64,000 bases of DNA, from the NCBI RefSeq assembly GCF_900187405.1, contig NZ_LT896716.1:1798001-1862000 (forward strand), given 5' to 3'. Positions within the stretch are counted from its first letter, which is position 1; every line of letters starts with the position of its first letter. Below, in pieces: positions 32,446 to 44,341 of the stretch. This DNA comes from Geobacter sp. DSM 9736. Its GTDB lineage: Bacteria > Desulfobacterota > Desulfuromonadia > Geobacterales > Geobacteraceae. The translations under genes were made by a program, and so were the position numbers. Under the pieces are notes generated by a model, which saw only the letters and a list, made by a program, of their open reading frames with translations, had not been told where the DNA came from and ran no database searches.

Positions 32446-33696
32446 ATGGCATTAATGTCGGAAAATGAAGCTAAGGAGCTCGGCCTCTACACCCGGGTCA
32501 GTGAGATGGAGCCGATGCTCGTTGAAAATGGGGAGCTGGAAGACTTGGCAGCTTCGATTCTTGAGGGCTCTGCTGCTCTCAGTGCCATCTTGCCGGACCA
32601 AACGCGGTCAGGGCTGCAAGAGATGCTACGAATCGTCAACTCCTACTACTCCAACTTGATTGAAGGGAACAGCACCCACCCTATAGATATCGAACGTGCA
32701 ACAAGGAAGGACTATTCGGGAGACCCTGCCAAGCGCAACCGCCAGATAGAGAGTGTGGCTCATATCGAGTGCCAACGTGCAATCGAATCGCGCCTTGCCG
32801 CCGAACCGGAGGTACCGATCACATCACCTGATTGGCTATGCTGGGTACATAAGTGTTTCTATGACCAGTTACCGGACGAATTACGCCAGGTAAAGAACGA
32901 AGAGACCAGTGAGACGCTCGAGGTCGTCGGTGGCGAGCCCAGGGAGCGGGATGTTCGCGTGTCTCGTCATGTTGGCCCCGCAAGTGCCTTCATGCCTCGC
33001 TTTCTGGACCGATACCATGAAGTTTACGGGCGCCGGATGCACGGGATTTCCCCCATCATTGCTACCGCGGCGGCACACCACAGGCTGATGTGGATCCACC
33101 CCTTTCTTGATGGGAATGGCCGTGTCGCCAGGCTTTGTACGGATGCTTCTTTCCGCAAATTGCTCAAGGGGTACGGCGTCTGGAACGTTAGCCGCGGCCT
33201 TGCCCGGCGGCGAGATGCCTATTATACGGCTCTCGCCAATGCTGATGCCCCCCGGCAAGGAGATCTTGATGGCCGTGGGAATCTGTCCAAAAAAGGCCTG
33301 GAAGACTTCATAAAGTTCTTCCTGGAAATATGCCTGGACCAGATTGAGTACATGCGAAGCGTGCTGCGTATCGACGGACTGCTTGACCGCTTGAACGGCT
33401 ATGTCACCCTTCGCCAATTAGGAATGGCGCCCTACCCTCCTGATGCGCAGAAGCTCCGCCCACAGGCTGCATATCTGTTACAGGAAGTCCTGATTCGTGG
33501 GGAGGTTTCTCGCGGTGACGTAAGCCGGATTACGGGACTCGGTGATCGCCTTGGGCGCAGCCTGGTTTCATCTCTCGTCAAGGAGCGGCTGTTAGTCTCT
33601 CCCATGCCGCAAGGGGGGCTCCGCCTCGGATTTCCGTCACACGCTGTCGAGTATTACTTCCCGGGCCTGTTCCCACCAACTGGCGGTGTAGCTTGA
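32446..33696 (+). CDS. Fic family protein (putative AMP transferase)
   Basis: A 416-residue Fic protein. The catalytic loop HPFLDGNGRVAR is at about 218-229. An N-terminal inhibitory motif of the [ST]xxxE[GN] type, SNLIEGN, lies at about 70-76, so the enzyme should be autoinhibited. The last 90 residues look like a winged helix (LLQEVLIRGEVSRGDVSRITGLGDRLGRS). Fic domains AMPylate or otherwise modify protein hydroxyls. The ribosome site is weak; an ATG three codons in is an alternative. It is flanked on both sides by direct copies of the island repeat (32208 and 33889). Confidence 0.92.
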   Translation: MALMSENEAKELGLYTRVSEMEPMLVENGELEDLAASILEGSAALSAILPDQTRSGLQEMLRIVNSYYSNLIEGNSTHPIDIERATRKDYSGDPAKRNRQIESVAHIECQRAIESRLAAEPEVPITSPDWLCWVHKCFYDQLPDELRQVKNEETSETLEVVGGEPRERDVRVSRHVGPASAFMPRFLDRYHEVYGRRMHGISPIIATAAAHHRLMWIHPFLDGNGRVARLCTDASFRKLLKGYGVWNVSRGLARRRDAYYTALANADAPRQGDLDGRGNLSKKGLEDFIKFFLEICLDQIEYMRSVLRIDGLLDRLNGYVTLRQLGMAPYPPDAQKLRPQAAYLLQEVLIRGEVSRGDVSRITGLGDRLGRSLVSSLVKERLLVSPMPQGGLRLGFPSHAVEYYFPGLFPPTGGVA

Positions 33697-34430: not shown

Positions 34431-34952
34431 ATGATTTCTGAATTTTCGGCAGCGGTACAAAGCGTAAAAGCACTAAAAGAGGTGCTTACAGCCGCCCACG
34501 AGCTTAAAGATTCGACGGCACTTATCGCCGCGGTCAATGAGGTTCATGGCAAGCTCGTCATCGCCTACGAAAATGTCATCAATTCCCAAGAGCAGCGCCT
34601 TTCGGCGCAGCAGAAAATATCGGAGCTTGAAAAGGAAATAACAGAAATCATGAACTGGAAACAAGAGACTGAACGTTATGCCCTTGCTGAAATAGGAAAG
34701 GGGGTCTTTGCCTTTGTTGTTAAGACAGATCGACAGAATGGAGAACCGTCTCATAAACTTTGCACTGCCTGCTTCGAGAAAAGACAAAAAGGCTATTTGA
34801 ATCTTTCTTGCAAAGACGGAAGAGGGACTTTTTATAAATGCAATGTCTGCGGAAGTGAAATCTGTTGCTTTGCTCAAGACTACCTCCAAGATTTAGGCCC
34901 TTCTGTTCACCGTTATGATTACAATCCGCTCGATCCTGAAGCCGGATATTAA
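34431..34952 (+). CDS. Coiled-coil protein with C-terminal zinc-ribbon, unknown function
   Basis: A 173-residue protein. Residues about 1-85 are helical with a coiled coil (SQEQRLSAQQKISELEKEI). Residues about 100-155 contain CTAC and CNVC, a four-cysteine zinc-ribbon arrangement, followed by CCFAQDY. I do not recognise a named family, but the layout recurs in accessory regions. AAAGGAG lies seven bases before the ATG. Lower GC than the flanking chromosome. The leader is repeat copy B, the same leader that precedes the Mrr-like gene at 42498. The group II intron begins 17 bp after its stop. Confidence 0.75.
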   Translation: MISEFSAAVQSVKALKEVLTAAHELKDSTALIAAVNEVHGKLVIAYENVINSQEQRLSAQQKISELEKEITEIMNWKQETERYALAEIGKGVFAFVVKTDRQNGEPSHKLCTACFEKRQKGYLNLSCKDGRGTFYKCNVCGSEICCFAQDYLQDLGPSVHRYDYNPLDPEAGY

Positions 34953-34969: not shown

Positions 34970-36877
34970 ATCGGGTAGCCGGGGGTCTTAGCCCCCCAGC
35001 CCCCACACCACCCGGCATGCGGGTCCGCACCGGGCGGTTCGAAGAATCTACCGGGCCGTAACCGGGTAATGAGCCTTCACCCACAGTTCTTTGACAGATA
35101 CAAGACCTTGATCCTTCAGCCACTGGTTGGTCATACCGTGCTGCGCGGCAAGCCTGCGGGACATGGCCCACGGGCCGCCACGATTCAGCCCTGCTCTTAT
35201 GGAAGTCCCAAGCTGAACTCCGAGTTTGAGCAGGTTCCGAATCTTGGTGCGGCACCACCGCCACTGTTTCCAGTAGCACAGCCGCACCCTGCGCCGTATC
35301 CAGCTGTCTATTTCCGGGATATAGTGGTACGCCTCAGATATACCGAAGTACCCCATCCAGCCGCGGATGTAGGTTGACAGCTTGTTCAGCCGGTACTCCA
35401 TGGAGACGAACCAGCTTCTTCCGGTGTATTTCCTGACGCGGCGCCGGAACTCCTTGTATACCTTGTCAGACCAGAGGATTTTGGTTCCCTTGAAGACGAA
35501 GCCAAGAAAGCTGATGTCGCCGCTTTTGGCGACCTTGCTCTTGTCTTCGTTGACCGTGAGCTTGAGCTGGTGCGTGAGATAGTGCCTCACGCTCTCCATG
35601 ACCCGTTCGCCTGCGCGCTCGCTCTTCACGAGAATGACGAAGTCGTCGGCGTAGCGGACGAACTTGTGGCCACGTTTCTCAAGCTCCTTGTCCAGGTGGT
35701 CGAGGAGGATGTTGGCAAGAAGCGGAGAAAGAGGACCGCCCTGGGGAACTCCCATGCGGGTCTTTTCCAGCCGCCCGTCAACTTCCACCCCGGCTCTGAG
35801 ATATCTGCCGATCAGGGCGAGAACGCGTTTATCGCGGACCTTCCTCCCCACCATCGTCATGAGGAGGTCGTGATTGACCGTGTCGAAGAACTTGGCAAGG
35901 TCGATGTCCACGGCAATGCGGTAGCCCTGCCGGAGATACTCCCGCAGCTGCCGCACGGCATCGTGCGCCGAGCGGCCGGGGCGGAAACCGAAACTTGACC
36001 CGGAGAAGTCGGGATCAAAGATCGGTGTGAGCACCTGGGCAATGGATTGCTGGATCAGCCGGTCGAGCACGATGGGGATACCCAGCGGACGGGTGCCGCC
36101 CGTCGGTTTCGGTATCTCCACCCGAAGGACCGGCTTAGGGTGGTAACTACCTGCTGCAAGCGATGCACGGATGTCGGCCCAGAAAGGCCGGAAGCGGTCG
36201 GGGAAATCTTCGATGGTGGTACCATCGACGCCGGGTGCGCCCTTGTTGGCTCGTACCCGTTTCCACGCCAGTTCCATGTTCTCTGTGGACAGAATCCGCT
36301 CCAGTAGGTGCTGCTCCGGAGTTTGCGGTTCAACGACGCGCTCCATCGGCACTCCCCCATTCGGGTTCACTGTGTCGTGAAAGCTCATTGGTGCTACCTC
36401 CTCTTCATCGTTCGGCCCTTCAGCGGGGTAAGGCTTCCCGGCTGTCTGTTACGACGCCGGGCTTGTTTCCAGTCATTGCATCGCTTGGCAACGACGTCCT
36501 GCGCCTACTATGGCTTCTGCTGACTCCTGCCCCATCACGGCAGCTGTTGCCAGAGGCCGCGCCATTGGGAAACAATGGCATGTGGGACAGGTCTCCCCGG
36601 ATAAGAACGTGAACTGTCGCTACACAACCGCAGCATTTACCGTTTCTCCTGAATCCGCGGGACTTCGTCATGTTGTGCTGACTTGCCCGGATGACGGCCT
36701 TGTATGCTGTTTCTGTTCGTCGGCTCATAGCTTTGCGCTCCGGCTTCCTCCAGACCCCTCCTCGCGGAGACGCCCTTGCCTTCGGCTAGTACTTTGTTAC
36801 CCCGTCTCACGACGGTGATTGGATTCTACGTACAGGGGACTTGCACCCATAAGTTCACGCCCATGCCGGGCGTACAC
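34970..36877 (-). mobile_element. Complete group II intron (about 1.9 kb)
   Basis: The minus strand begins GTGTACGCCCGGCATGGGCG and TGGGTGCAAGTCC (5' domain I signature). It encodes a reverse transcriptase, and ends with a domain V hairpin (GAACCGCCCGGTGCGGACC to GCATGCCGGGTGGT), a domain VI hairpin and CTACCCGAT. The 3' boundary was set by comparison with the remnant at 38573, where homology also stops at ATCGGGTAG (plus strand). The 5' boundary is less certain. The 490 bp upstream of the reading frame are ribozyme domains I-IV. Confidence 0.85.
35048..36388 (-). CDS. ltrA: Group II intron reverse transcriptase/maturase
   Basis: A 446-residue intron-encoded protein. Reverse transcriptase motifs include RPLGIPIVLDRLIQQ, FGFRPGRSAHDAV, the VDIDLAKFFDTVNHD motif, GVPQGGPLSPLLANI and the catalytic YADD at about 246. 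A maturase (X) domain occupies about 320-420. No HNH endonuclease domain follows, as is common in bacterial lineages that insert by other routes. It supports splicing and retrohoming of the intron that carries it. AGGAGGT precedes the ATG. Confidence 0.95.
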   Translation of the reverse strand: MSFHDTVNPNGGVPMERVVEPQTPEQHLLERILSTENMELAWKRVRANKGAPGVDGTTIEDFPDRFRPFWADIRASLAAGSYHPKPVLRVEIPKPTGGTRPLGIPIVLDRLIQQSIAQVLTPIFDPDFSGSSFGFRPGRSAHDAVRQLREYLRQGYRIAVDIDLAKFFDTVNHDLLMTMVGRKVRDKRVLALIGRYLRAGVEVDGRLEKTRMGVPQGGPLSPLLANILLDHLDKELEKRGHKFVRYADDFVILVKSERAGERVMESVRHYLTHQLKLTVNEDKSKVAKSGDISFLGFVFKGTKILWSDKVYKEFRRRVRKYTGRSWFVSMEYRLNKLSTYIRGWMGYFGISEAYHYIPEIDSWIRRRVRLCYWKQWRWCRTKIRNLLKLGVQLGTSIRAGLNRGGPWAMSRRLAAQHGMTNQWLKDQGLVSVKELWVKAHYPVTAR

Positions 36878-37024: not shown

Positions 37025-38332
37025 ATGACTACATCTTACCACAAGGAAATGTCTCTTAAAAATTGGCAGAATATGTTCAAAGACATTTACTATCCTGCAC
37101 AGAATTATGGGCGTTCTAAATTTGAAATTTTAGCTTATCTATTTAAAACTGTTGGCACATGCTCATACTATCTATTTCGTGTACAGGATTCACAAAAAAC
37201 TCAGGAATATGTATCTAAAATTTTTTCTTGGTATTGTGCATTAGCAACACGTATGGAAGTTGACTTGGAGGATGCTATCTGGCAGAAGTATCCTCTTGTC
37301 TGTCCACGTTGTTTACTTAGAAAGTGTGAATGTTCAAGCAGTCCTGTTCCGGTTGACCCTGTGAAACTTTCAATGATATCACTTGAAAATTCACATAATC
37401 GACCAGAAAGCCTAAGAGATTGGCAAACCATGTTCGGCCAACTTTATAGGGGACCAAATGGAGTTGCGAACATACCTCATTCTAGAGAGAGACTAGCATT
37501 AATATATACTAGGATTGTTGAGGAGATCGGTGAGGTTTCTGAATCCATGCGACTTGATCCAGTTGTTGATGCTGATGCACGCCTAATATTGAAAAACGAA
37601 ATTGCGGATTTAGGAGCCTGGATATTTTCTTTGGCTAACAACCTTCATTGCATGGATTCAACAGCAAACGGTGCCAATTTAGCGGATTTATTATGGAGAT
37701 TATATCCAGGGAAGTGCAATAGATGCAATGAACCCAAATGTGCCTGTATTCGTGGAGCCTATTCTATCGAGTTAGCAGAAAAGGGGGCCATGTCACCATC
37801 ACATTGGGATGATTTGACAGGACTTGCGAATAAAAAAGCGTTGAAGACCTATGTCAACTATGCTTCCAGGGAATTTGCAAACGGTGACTATTCATGGTCA
37901 ATTATTTTCCTGGACTTAGATGATTTTGGGGAAATAAACAAGACTCATAGTCACCAAATAGGAGATGAAATATTAAGAGAAGCAGCTAAACGTATGGAGC
38001 GAATAGTAGATAAGAGCGGTATAGTATTTCGAAGAGGCGGAGAAGAGTTTGTTATAGTTTTACGGCAGAGAAATGATCAAGCATTAATCACTGCAGAGTT
38101 AGTAAGGAGAAAACTTGAATATAAGTCTTTCAAAACAGAATCTGTATCTGATGGTGTTATTATTAATGTCACAGCTTCGTTAGGTGTAGCATCATGTACA
38201 ACTGATGCTACAGCGCCTGAACACCTTGAAAATATAGCTGAATCAAGATCAAGAGAGGCAAAAAAAGCTGGGAAAAATTGCGTGGTTCCAGCACCATCCC
38301 AAGAGAGTTTGAGGCTAGCTCGTTTAGCCTAG
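37025..38332 (+). CDS. Tandem MazG-like / GGDEF fusion protein
   Basis: A 435-residue AT-rich gene product. Two similar units occur at about 10-102 and 125-237. Each starts NWQNMF/DWQTMF and ends in CxxC-x4-CxC (CPRCLLRKCEC; CNRCNEPKCAC). Unit 2 has MazG-type acidic residues (EEIGEVSE, NEIADLGAW); unit 1 has lost them. A GGDEF domain follows from about 255: LTGLANKKAL, FLDLDDFGEIN and an intact RGGEEF near 336, so nucleotide cyclase activity is likely. No membrane segment is seen. AAAGGAG precedes the ATG. It lies between a complete group II intron and a remnant of the same family, suggesting acquisition. A role linking NTP pyrophosphatase activity to cyclic dinucleotide synthesis is inference. 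Confidence 0.85.
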   Translation: MTTSYHKEMSLKNWQNMFKDIYYPAQNYGRSKFEILAYLFKTVGTCSYYLFRVQDSQKTQEYVSKIFSWYCALATRMEVDLEDAIWQKYPLVCPRCLLRKCECSSSPVPVDPVKLSMISLENSHNRPESLRDWQTMFGQLYRGPNGVANIPHSRERLALIYTRIVEEIGEVSESMRLDPVVDADARLILKNEIADLGAWIFSLANNLHCMDSTANGANLADLLWRLYPGKCNRCNEPKCACIRGAYSIELAEKGAMSPSHWDDLTGLANKKALKTYVNYASREFANGDYSWSIIFLDLDDFGEINKTHSHQIGDEILREAAKRMERIVDKSGIVFRRGGEEFVIVLRQRNDQALITAELVRRKLEYKSFKTESVSDGVIINVTASLGVASCTTDATAPEHLENIAESRSREAKKAGKNCVVPAPSQESLRLARLA

Positions 38333-38572
38333 GGGGGACATAATATAATTAACCTGTCAAGCAGAAATAGCGTTGTTTGAACAACTTGCGGCTAGTTGGT
38401 GATTCAGGCAAGACATAGGGCAAGATATAGGTGACAGGCCGCCACTCACTAAATATTGTCACGTGGAGGTCTGACACCATCGCTTGAATTTGTAACTACC
38501 ACAACTACCTGCTGCCGGAAAACTGCCGCCGAAAGAAATTGCTCTGCCGACGCGATAAATAAAGAAATTTCA

Positions 38573-38920
38573 ATCGGGTAGCCGGGGGTCTTTAACCCCC
38601 CGCCCCCACACCACCCGGCATGCGGGTCCGCACCGGGCGGTTCGTTGAACTTACCGGGCCGTAGCCGGGTAATGGATCTTCACCCACAGTTCTTTGACAG
38701 ATACGAGACCTCGATCCTGCATGCACTTCTTGGTCAAACCAGTATGAGTGGCAAGCTTTCTGGACATTGCCCACGGACCTTTTCTGCGTAAGCCCGCGCG
38801 GATGGCGGTGTAGAGTTCGGTGCCAAGCTTCAGCAACTCCCGAATCTTGGTGCGGCACCCGCCACTGTTTCGCTTGTGCATGTAGGGTCGGACCAAGCTA
38901 TCTATCCGAAAAAAGGACAT
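38573..38920 (-). mobile_element. 3' remnant of a group II intron
   Basis: This holds the last 80 codons of a maturase closely related to that at 35048 (shared GPWAMSR, GLVSVKELWVK, HYP.TAR) plus domains V-VI with nearly identical hairpins, ending at the same ATCGGGTAG boundary. The reverse transcriptase domain and 5' end are missing. Same orientation as the full intron, which is 1.7 kb away. Confidence 0.88.
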
Positions 38921-42497: not shown

Positions 42498-43439
42498 ATG
42501 GCCATTCCAGATTATCAAGCCTGCATGTTGCCCCTCCTTCGTTTGGCATCCGACGGGAATGAACACCAGCTTAAAGATGCTACTGGCCCTTTGGCGAAAG
42601 AATTTGATTTGACGGAGGATGAACTTCGTAAATTCCTTCCGAGCGGCTTGCAACCTGTTTTTATTAATCGAGTTGCGTGGGCTCGTACGTACTTGGGTAA
42701 GGCTGGTTTGCTTTGTTCAACAAGAAGAGGATTTTTCAAAATTACACCAAAAGGCCTTGAACTCGTTAACGGCGGAATAAGCGAGCTTAATACCAAGTTT
42801 TTAGAACAATATCCTGAGTTTCAAGAATTTAAAGCGGGACGAGGAGAGGTACGCAGTCAAGATCGAATCGTTACAGTAACTGTCCCTGAAGACACAGAGA
42901 CTGCGGTAAACGATGAAACAGAAATAAGAAAATCCTATCATATACAAGCTCTATTGGCGCGTATCGGCGAAAAAATGGGATTCAGTATTTGGCTTCCTAG
43001 AAGTGATCGCGGAAATGTAACGAGAGAATGGACTCCTGCAGGTTCGACTTTACTCGATGTACTTCCACTCAATTACGATGACACGACAATCAGAACAATT
43101 GAACAAATAGATGTTATTTGGCTCAAGAAGCGATCTATTGTCAGAGCATTTGAAGTTGAACATACTACATCAGTCTATTCTGGACTATTACGAATGGCTG
43201 ATTTGCTGGCGCTTCAACCCAACATGGACATACATCTTCACATTGTTGCCCCATCTACACGCCGAGACAAGGTCTTTCAGGAAATTCAAAGGCCAGTATT
43301 CTCATTGCTTGATCGCGCGCCATTATATGAGTGTTGCAGCTACATATCCTACGACAGTATGGAGCAACTAGCCCAAGAAAGGCACCTGGAACATCTGTCT
43401 GACTCAGTACTTGATGAATACAGCGAGTGGGCGGAATAG
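42498..43439 (+). CDS. Mrr_N-type restriction-like protein with PD-(D/E)xK-like C terminus
   Basis: A 313-residue protein. Residues 1-95 match the Mrr N-terminal winged helix (IPDYQACMLPLLRLASDG, FINRVAWARTYLGKAGLL, GFFKITPKGLEL). Residues about 150-290 contain IDVIWLKKRSIVRAFEVEHTTS, a hydrophobic strand-Asp then Glu-x-Glu pattern suggesting a PD-(D/E)xK nuclease core, although the usual Lys is not obvious. Mrr-like proteins cut modified foreign DNA. GC content is low. AAGGAA precedes the ATG. The leader is repeat copy C, shared with the unrelated gene at 34431. No methylase or partner gene is nearby. Confidence 0.78.
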   Translation: MAIPDYQACMLPLLRLASDGNEHQLKDATGPLAKEFDLTEDELRKFLPSGLQPVFINRVAWARTYLGKAGLLCSTRRGFFKITPKGLELVNGGISELNTKFLEQYPEFQEFKAGRGEVRSQDRIVTVTVPEDTETAVNDETEIRKSYHIQALLARIGEKMGFSIWLPRSDRGNVTREWTPAGSTLLDVLPLNYDDTTIRTIEQIDVIWLKKRSIVRAFEVEHTTSVYSGLLRMADLLALQPNMDIHLHIVAPSTRRDKVFQEIQRPVFSLLDRAPLYECCSYISYDSMEQLAQERHLEHLSDSVLDEYSEWAE

Positions 43440-43747: not shown

Positions 43748-44041
43748 TTATCGAGCTTCGGCGTGAAGTTTGAGCCCCAGAGCCGAAACAATTTTTAAAA
43801 TCGTATCGAAACCCGGAACTCGTTCACCAGAAAGTGCCTTGTAAAGGCTTTCTCGAGAAAGGCCCGCATCTCGCGCCACCTGAGACATGCCTTTGGCACG
43901 GGCTATATCGCCGAGGGCCTTGGCAATGAAAGCTGCATCGCCATTAGCCTCTTCGAGGGACGCTTCAAGGTAGGCCGCCATTTCTTCCGGAGTACGGAGA
44001 TGTTCGGCAACATCATATCGACTGGTGGCTGTTTTAGGCAT
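43748..44041 (-). CDS. HigA-like antitoxin (HI1420-type)
   Basis: A 97-residue helix-turn-helix protein. Residues about 40-90 form the motif AKGMSQVARDAGLSRESLYKAL and end ILKIVSALGLKL, as in the HI1420 family of addiction-module antidotes. It should bind both its toxin and the module promoter. It follows the toxin gene by nine bases, the toxin-first order of HigBA-type modules. Confidence 0.9.
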   Translation of the reverse strand: MPKTATSRYDVAEHLRTPEEMAAYLEASLEEANGDAAFIAKALGDIARAKGMSQVARDAGLSRESLYKALSGERVPGFDTILKIVSALGLKLHAEAR

Positions 44042-44050
44042 TTTCGACTC

Positions 44051-44341
44051 CTATAAGTTCTGTGCAAGCCTGATAGCGGCCTTGATATCCCGAGACTGGC
44101 TGCTCTTATCGCCACCGGCCAACAGGATGATCAATTCGCTTCCGCGCTGGATGAAGTAGACACGATAACCGGGTCCGTAGTTGATCCGCATCTCCGAAAG
44201 GCCTTCACCAACAGGCTTAACGTCTCCTGCATTTCCTGAGGCAAGGCGTTCGATTCTGACGAGGACGCGAGCCTTGGCCTGAATGTCGCGCAAGTTGTCA
44301 AGCCAGCTAGCAAAAACTTCGGTCTTGCGAATTTCAACCAT
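44051..44341 (-). CDS. HigB/RelE-like toxin (HI1419-type)
   Basis: A 96-residue RelE-superfamily toxin with KTEVFASWLDNLRD, ARVLVRIERLASGNAGDVKPVGEGLSEMRI and GPGYRVYF, the conserved pattern of HI1419-type killers, which cleave mRNA. The 3' neighbour is its antitoxin. A sigma-70 promoter ends six bases before the ATG, so the mRNA is predicted to be leaderless; the AGGAGG upstream lies inside the promoter spacer. Confidence 0.92.
   Translation of the reverse strand: MVEIRKTEVFASWLDNLRDIQAKARVLVRIERLASGNAGDVKPVGEGLSEMRINYGPGYRVYFIQRGSELIILLAGGDKSSQSRDIKAAIRLAQNL

Follow-up and report, generated by a model that had tools for sequence, protein, structure and literature searches.

MazG proteins and other all-alpha NTP pyrophosphatases convert NTPs to NMPs and pyrophosphate. 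A gene in the window, i.e., the whole stretch of 64,000 nucleotides of Geobacter sp. DSM 9736 that was analysed here, encodes two MazG-like units in tandem followed by a GGDEF domain. Single-domain MazG pyrophosphohydrolases with a CPxC-x4-CxC tail, as well as the structure 1VMG (SSO3215), share the fold of these units and the metal quartet of the second unit, and the zinc-type tail is shared with the single-domain relatives; they differ in that each chain has a single unit and lacks an output domain, and in their housekeeping-like neighbourhood. Dimeric dUTPases are thought to go back to the duplication of a MazG-like ancestor and have the four-helix bundle in one chain (PMC2954211). The window protein has two MazG repeats in one chain, but no sequence match to the dUTPases is detectable, and it adds zinc tails and the GGDEF domain.

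On the output side, PleD and the GacA-type Hypr enzymes share with the window protein the catalytic domain with the metal and guanine residues of PleD, from which it differs in its MazG-pair input, the absence of an I-site, and an Asp in place of the Hypr Ser. Panoptes OptS (mCpol, a minimal CRISPR polymerase) and CBASS likewise use an enzyme for cyclic nucleotides that belongs to the broader palm-fold group, and a phage-nucleotide theme would be common to both if the window protein served in defence (PMC12657218). Unlike these systems, the window protein is a true GGDEF enzyme in one gene, with a MazG input and no dedicated neighbouring effector seen. An mCpol OptS with an adjacent OptE, which defines Panoptes, was not found at this locus; the GGDEF motif is canonical, and the neighbours are the intron, a DUF3108 gene, and a histidine kinase gene.

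The MazG pair itself was detected by tblastn in 17 plasmid records, all from E. coli, and in one Vibrio filamentous phage. The proteins concerned, WP_000944483 of an E. coli IncY P1-like element (annotated as 'MazG-like family protein') and XLL20512 of Vibrio phage 10N.286.54.E11_PE002A, share the apparently dead unit 1, the apparently live unit 2, and the Cys4 tails, and match the pair at full length (E = 1e-9 and 5e-11). Both have 330 aa, with 29% mutual identity and about 28% identity to the window protein, and differ from it in that about 90 mostly helical residues replace the GGDEF domain. In the literature searched, we found no description of MazG and GGDEF in one chain and no published account of a family in which a dead/live MazG-Zn pair carries exchangeable C-termini. 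The single domains are familiar; what seems new is the MazG-GGDEF chain and the dead/live MazG-Zn pair as a family.

The fusion gene and its locus

The frame starts with ATG, is uninterrupted, and is preceded by the Shine-Dalgarno sequence AAAGGAG 5 bases 5' of the start (Table 1). In the protein, unit 1 covers about residues 10-103 and unit 2 about 129-241, and each is closed by CxxC-x4-CxC (C93-C96-C101-C103 and C231-C234-C239-C241). The two units align with each other (E = 4.9e-8, 23.9% identity, pairwise BLAST), and an independent single-domain MazG-Zn protein aligns with unit 1 and unit 2 (E = 2e-13 and 7e-9), which together place the repeat beyond chance. The first-pass annotation had described two such repeats with terminal cysteine motifs, followed by GGDEF in one gene, and the mapped cysteines, the pairwise alignment, and the intact frame agree with it in each respect. 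The Cys4 motifs of both units probably bind structural zinc.

Table 1. Features of the fusion gene and of the flanking group II intron elements in the window.
Feature	Position	Strand	Basis
Tandem MazG-Zn / GGDEF fusion gene	37025..38332	+	One open frame, Shine-Dalgarno sequence, 435 aa
Unit 1: MazG fold, all four metal ligands lost, tail CPRCLLRKCEC	37052..37333	+	1VMG match, alignment with single-domain MazG-Zn proteins
Unit 2: MazG fold, metal quartet kept, tail CNRCNEPKCAC	37409..37747	+	Tandem profile against 1VMG, model helices
GGDEF domain (aa 260-418) without I-site, retaining the metal and guanine residues; Asp at the Hypr selectivity position	37802..38278	+	PF00990, PleD and GacA-type alignments
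Group II intron protein, reverse transcriptase and maturase domain	35048..36388	-	Pfam RVT_1, GIIM
Intron RNA domains; 5' end near 36877 (read from sequence)	36496-36771	-	Rfam RF02001, RF01998
Remnant of 3' part of same kind of intron, same orientation	38572..38871	-	86% identity over 207 columns, plus second short piece

Both halves of the N-terminal pair have the MazG fold. Since the Pfam MazG family PF03819 by itself stays below its curated cut-off in the window protein (unit 2, 13.7 bits against 22), this assignment is based on the PDB match, the profiles, the relatives, and the predicted model. Sequence comparison links unit 1 to 1VMG (E = 1.2e-4), a profile of five tandem sequences matches this structure over unit 2 (E = 4.2e-5), and PF03819 exceeds its cut-off in the Vibrio relative (26.7) and in one single-domain relative (34.6). 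The structure prediction, which covered residues 1-252 (mean pLDDT 75, pTM 0.79), has helices at 11-22, 32-53, 56-76, and 81-88 in repeat 1 and at 130-140, 154-176, 183-210, and 219-226 in repeat 2, the latter four falling within residues 125-237, where a missing MazG fold would have weighed against the original reading. 1VMG superposed on this model at 1.2 A over 84 columns (probability 0.99, target-normalised TM 0.92; repeat concerned unspecified), and predicted phage NTP-PPase-like proteins matched it moderately (TM 0.3-0.5) over about 200 columns or more. Foldseek matches of the model to dUTPases had a TM of about 0.23, too low to count as evidence. Weak matches of the window protein to Cys_rich_KTR and S10_plectin were dropped, as was a Cas10/Cmr2 palm match (E = 0.011), which is explained by GGDEF kinship.

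According to a previous study, the metal residues in 1VMG are Glu35, Glu38, Glu54, and Asp57 (PMC2954211). In the alignment, all four are kept in unit 2 as E167, E170, E192, and D195, within the motifs EEIGE (166-170) and EIAD (192-195), whereas unit 1 has T42, T45, Y62, and K65 at the same places, within KTVGT (41-45) and YVSK (62-65), and no metal ligand is left. The contrast between a first unit that had lost its acidic residues and a second that had kept them was already noted in the first-pass annotation and is now located in these four positions. Unit 1 is apparently dead and unit 2 apparently live.

The GGDEF domain is recognised far above cut-off (PF00990, E = 3.8e-32; TIGR00254, E = 2.2e-33), with RGGEEF at 337-342. 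In the alignment with PleD, with residue roles as generally assigned in GGDEF proteins, the metal Asp corresponds to D297 and the guanine Asn/Asp to N305 and D314, and E340 is also kept. Thus, by sequence, the catalytic and guanine residues of the domain, earlier called intact, are retained. The RxxD of the I-site, which is common but non-essential in GGDEF diguanylate cyclases, is missing, with D329 and G332 there instead. The ALY of the last helix is lost, and Arg446 of PleD is replaced by Lys, likewise found in the GacA-type structure 6D9M. The Hypr cGAMP synthase GacA has a Ser at selectivity position 347 (PMC6456294). In the alignment with 6D9M, this position is occupied by D314 in the window protein, on which ground its predicted product is c-di-GMP and not cGAMP; of the earlier wording 'c-di-GMP or related dinucleotides', the first part is retained as the prediction and cGAMP is disfavoured. 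The host genome has 18 other GGDEF hits. One host GGDEF domain (L004 1501-1980; G000:C1:761957-762436) is very close to the Hypr structure 6D9M and has Ser at the selectivity position, which makes cGAMP signalling likely in this organism.

The fusion gene has a GC content of 0.391 and a GC3 of 0.29, against a window GC of 0.568. GC3 is 0.54-0.79 in seven of the nine neighbours tested, while 34431-34952 and 42498-43439 are AT-rich too. The low GC spans the whole fusion gene, and this foreign composition suggests horizontal acquisition. Both the AT-richness relative to the flanks and the placement with a group II intron on one side and a remnant of that family on the other, as first described, were reproduced (Table 1). 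A plasmid DNA search gave just short matches to the conserved intron end, and promoter and terminator scans gave no more hits than shuffled sequences. Elsewhere in the window lie an AT-rich Mrr_N restriction-like gene (42498-43439, +) and, after it, a pair made up of a RelE/ParE-family toxin and an HI1420-type antitoxin (43748-44341, -). A Fic/DOC-family protein (32446-33696) has SoFic as its best PADLOC match (E = 4.7e-22), far below the NCBIfam SoFic cut-off. The AT-rich gene at 34431-34952 encodes an orphan protein of 173 aa, which has paired cysteine motifs and for which Pfam, NCBIfam, and PADLOC gave no family.

A tandem pair with exchanged C-termini

The dead/live MazG-Zn pair is a family with exchanged C-termini; these termini, like the domain order, the MazG fold, and the residues kept or lost, are computed results. 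A comparison of five tandem proteins showed no variation at any of the eight cysteines or in the quartet of unit 2, and unit 1 is without the acidic motif in every one. More tandem variants occur among viral contigs. The predicted model of the E. coli relative is weak (mean pLDDT 65, pTM 0.57). Two chromosomal tandems (L062 1129-2313, +; L063 1165-2313, -) of 374 and 372 aa have no output domain, adjoin pheS, and show, by sequence, a degenerate first and a live second unit. Their hosts are two genera of one family within the phylum of the window, a family other than the one to which most single-domain MazG-Zn genes of this phylum belong. The single-domain proteins (L066 6233-6544, -; L028, L030-L034) are about 100 aa long with a CPxC-x4-CxC tail, and in the two genomes examined their genes lie beside what we take, from the sequences, to be plsX/fabH-type genes of fatty-acid synthesis. 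A constant pair joined to a variable C-terminus is how a sensor with exchangeable outputs would be built.

In one further genome (G394), a degenerate MazG-Zn unit lies at a contig edge (L035 122-499, -), and a DNA-methyltransferase-like gene with an SPPYN motif and a further ORF are found about 4 kb from it (L064 4337-5847).

No second copy of the GGDEF fusion was found in 277 genomes of its class, 395 of its phylum, and 398 of another phylum, or in the plasmids, phages, and viral contigs searched; since this survey left out Pseudomonadota genomes and the one genome-contig scan used single-sequence peptide patterns, the fusion may occur elsewhere. The same searches gave no set of GGDEF-fused homologues in non-mobile contexts; a wide set of this kind would have weighed against the original reading. 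Two genome-contig matches aligned with the GGDEF part alone and came from genomes without the tandem, two IMG/VR matches (L012, L013) were false positives, and matches in the other phylum and in genome G204 covered only a generic MazG stretch.

In P1-like phage-plasmids, the tandem gene occupies one accessory slot. It was present in 19 of 5,426 E. coli genomes, plasmid-borne every time, while most of its left flank was present in 679 of them. In five other P1-like plasmids, the same slot is empty or holds IS421 or another small ORF. One such ORF, filling the slot of a P1-like plasmid, is the uncharacterised WP_000268409.1 (L051 7126-7722). In the Vibrio phage, the tandem gene has a gene-1-like protein on one side and a putative transcription regulator on the other. 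Previous work described, in Vibrio filamentous and tailless prophages, a locus for accessory genes that often has a regulator gene next to it and is enriched in defence functions (PMC11630473). The position of the Vibrio tandem fits this locus, as judged from the described layout.

Proposed mechanism and alternatives

We give about an even chance to the reading that the fusion gene is a horizontally acquired single-gene enzyme, in which the nucleotide state of the MazG pair switches c-di-GMP synthesis by the GGDEF domain. Unit 1 would serve as a non-catalytic scaffold, and unit 2 would provide the sole metal/NTP site of the pair. The pair may bind, or cleave pyrophosphate from, a particular NTP, dNTP, or modified nucleotide; its nucleotide state would then set the geometry of the dimer that the C-terminal GGDEF domains form and thereby switch c-di-GMP synthesis, which would proceed without I-site feedback. 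Phage attack is one candidate trigger. In this scheme, we infer the coupling and the ligand, as well as the zinc and the product. The occurrence in relatives of the same pair with a different C-terminus or none is what one would predict for a sensor whose outputs are exchangeable, the foreign composition agrees with horizontal acquisition, and the dimeric dUTPases, as presumed products of MazG-like duplication, offer a precedent for the fused pair. However, the GGDEF fusion is known from one copy in these searches, which counts against this reading, as do the PF03819 score below cut-off, the lost ALY of the last GGDEF helix, and the Lys in place of Arg446 of PleD.

Somewhat short of even, yet a serious possibility, is that the protein regulates lifestyle (attachment, metal respiration) as other c-di-GMP enzymes do; it would then respond to the normal nucleotide pool or to stress and have no link to phages. 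The 18 other GGDEF hits, one of them close to 6D9M, indicate that c-di-GMP signalling is in place in this genome, and the relatives with a single domain, like the tandems without an output, are housekeeping-like and lie on chromosomes. However, one would not usually expect a foreign composition or a singleton distribution in a core regulator, and the nearest relatives are phage-borne.

Rather doubtful is the anti-phage system, a special case of the switched-cyclase scheme with the trigger named, in which the pair would sense a nucleotide pool altered by phage (dNTP depletion, modified dNTPs, or a phage nucleotide enzyme) and the GGDEF output would lead to a protective response. Consistent with it are the accessory slot of the P1-like relatives, the Vibrio relative beside a regulator gene, as in the locus of PMC11630473, the Mrr_N restriction-like gene, Fic gene, and toxin-antitoxin pair around the fusion gene, and the listing of MazG domains among predicted defence domains (PMC13092281). 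However, the window protein matched nothing in PADLOC 2.0.0 and its relatives had only weak matches of the coiled-coil type, accessory slots carry non-defence cargo too, the two chromosomal tandems beside pheS look like resident genes, and a GGDEF output in phage defence was not described in the literature found. Phage cargo slots favour defence, and resident chromosomal relatives favour metabolic signalling. The phage defence proposed in the first-pass annotation is thus suggested solely by the location of the relatives in phage accessory slots and is opposed by the tandems at pheS and the single-domain genes at plsX/fabH-type genes; ordinary nucleotide-pool signalling is about as likely. It is improbable, in our estimation, that the family as a whole is a phage-carried immune family, whose dead/live pair would detect phage-altered nucleotides and drive exchangeable outputs, here canonical c-di-GMP.

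Least probable is that a mobile MazG-Zn gene and a GGDEF gene were recently fused by chance and that their uncoupled halves are now drifting. The single copy found, its place between an intron and an intron remnant of that kind, and the eroded late GGDEF helix speak for this reading. Against it, the frame is uninterrupted with a good ribosome-binding site, the protein retains its eight cysteines, the quartet of unit 2, and the metal and guanine residues of the GGDEF domain, and the halves seem to have arrived together because GC is low over the whole gene.

If the coupling of the MazG pair to the GGDEF domain is true, one polypeptide would tie the nucleotide pool to c-di-GMP. To our knowledge, the nucleotide pool is not usually listed among the inputs of diguanylate cyclases. 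Were the immune-family reading true, the fusion would put c-di-GMP signalling to an unusual use, in defence against phages. The MazG-Zn pair shared by P1-like phage-plasmids and a filamentous phage could reveal a family for defence or lysogen fitness that PADLOC has missed.
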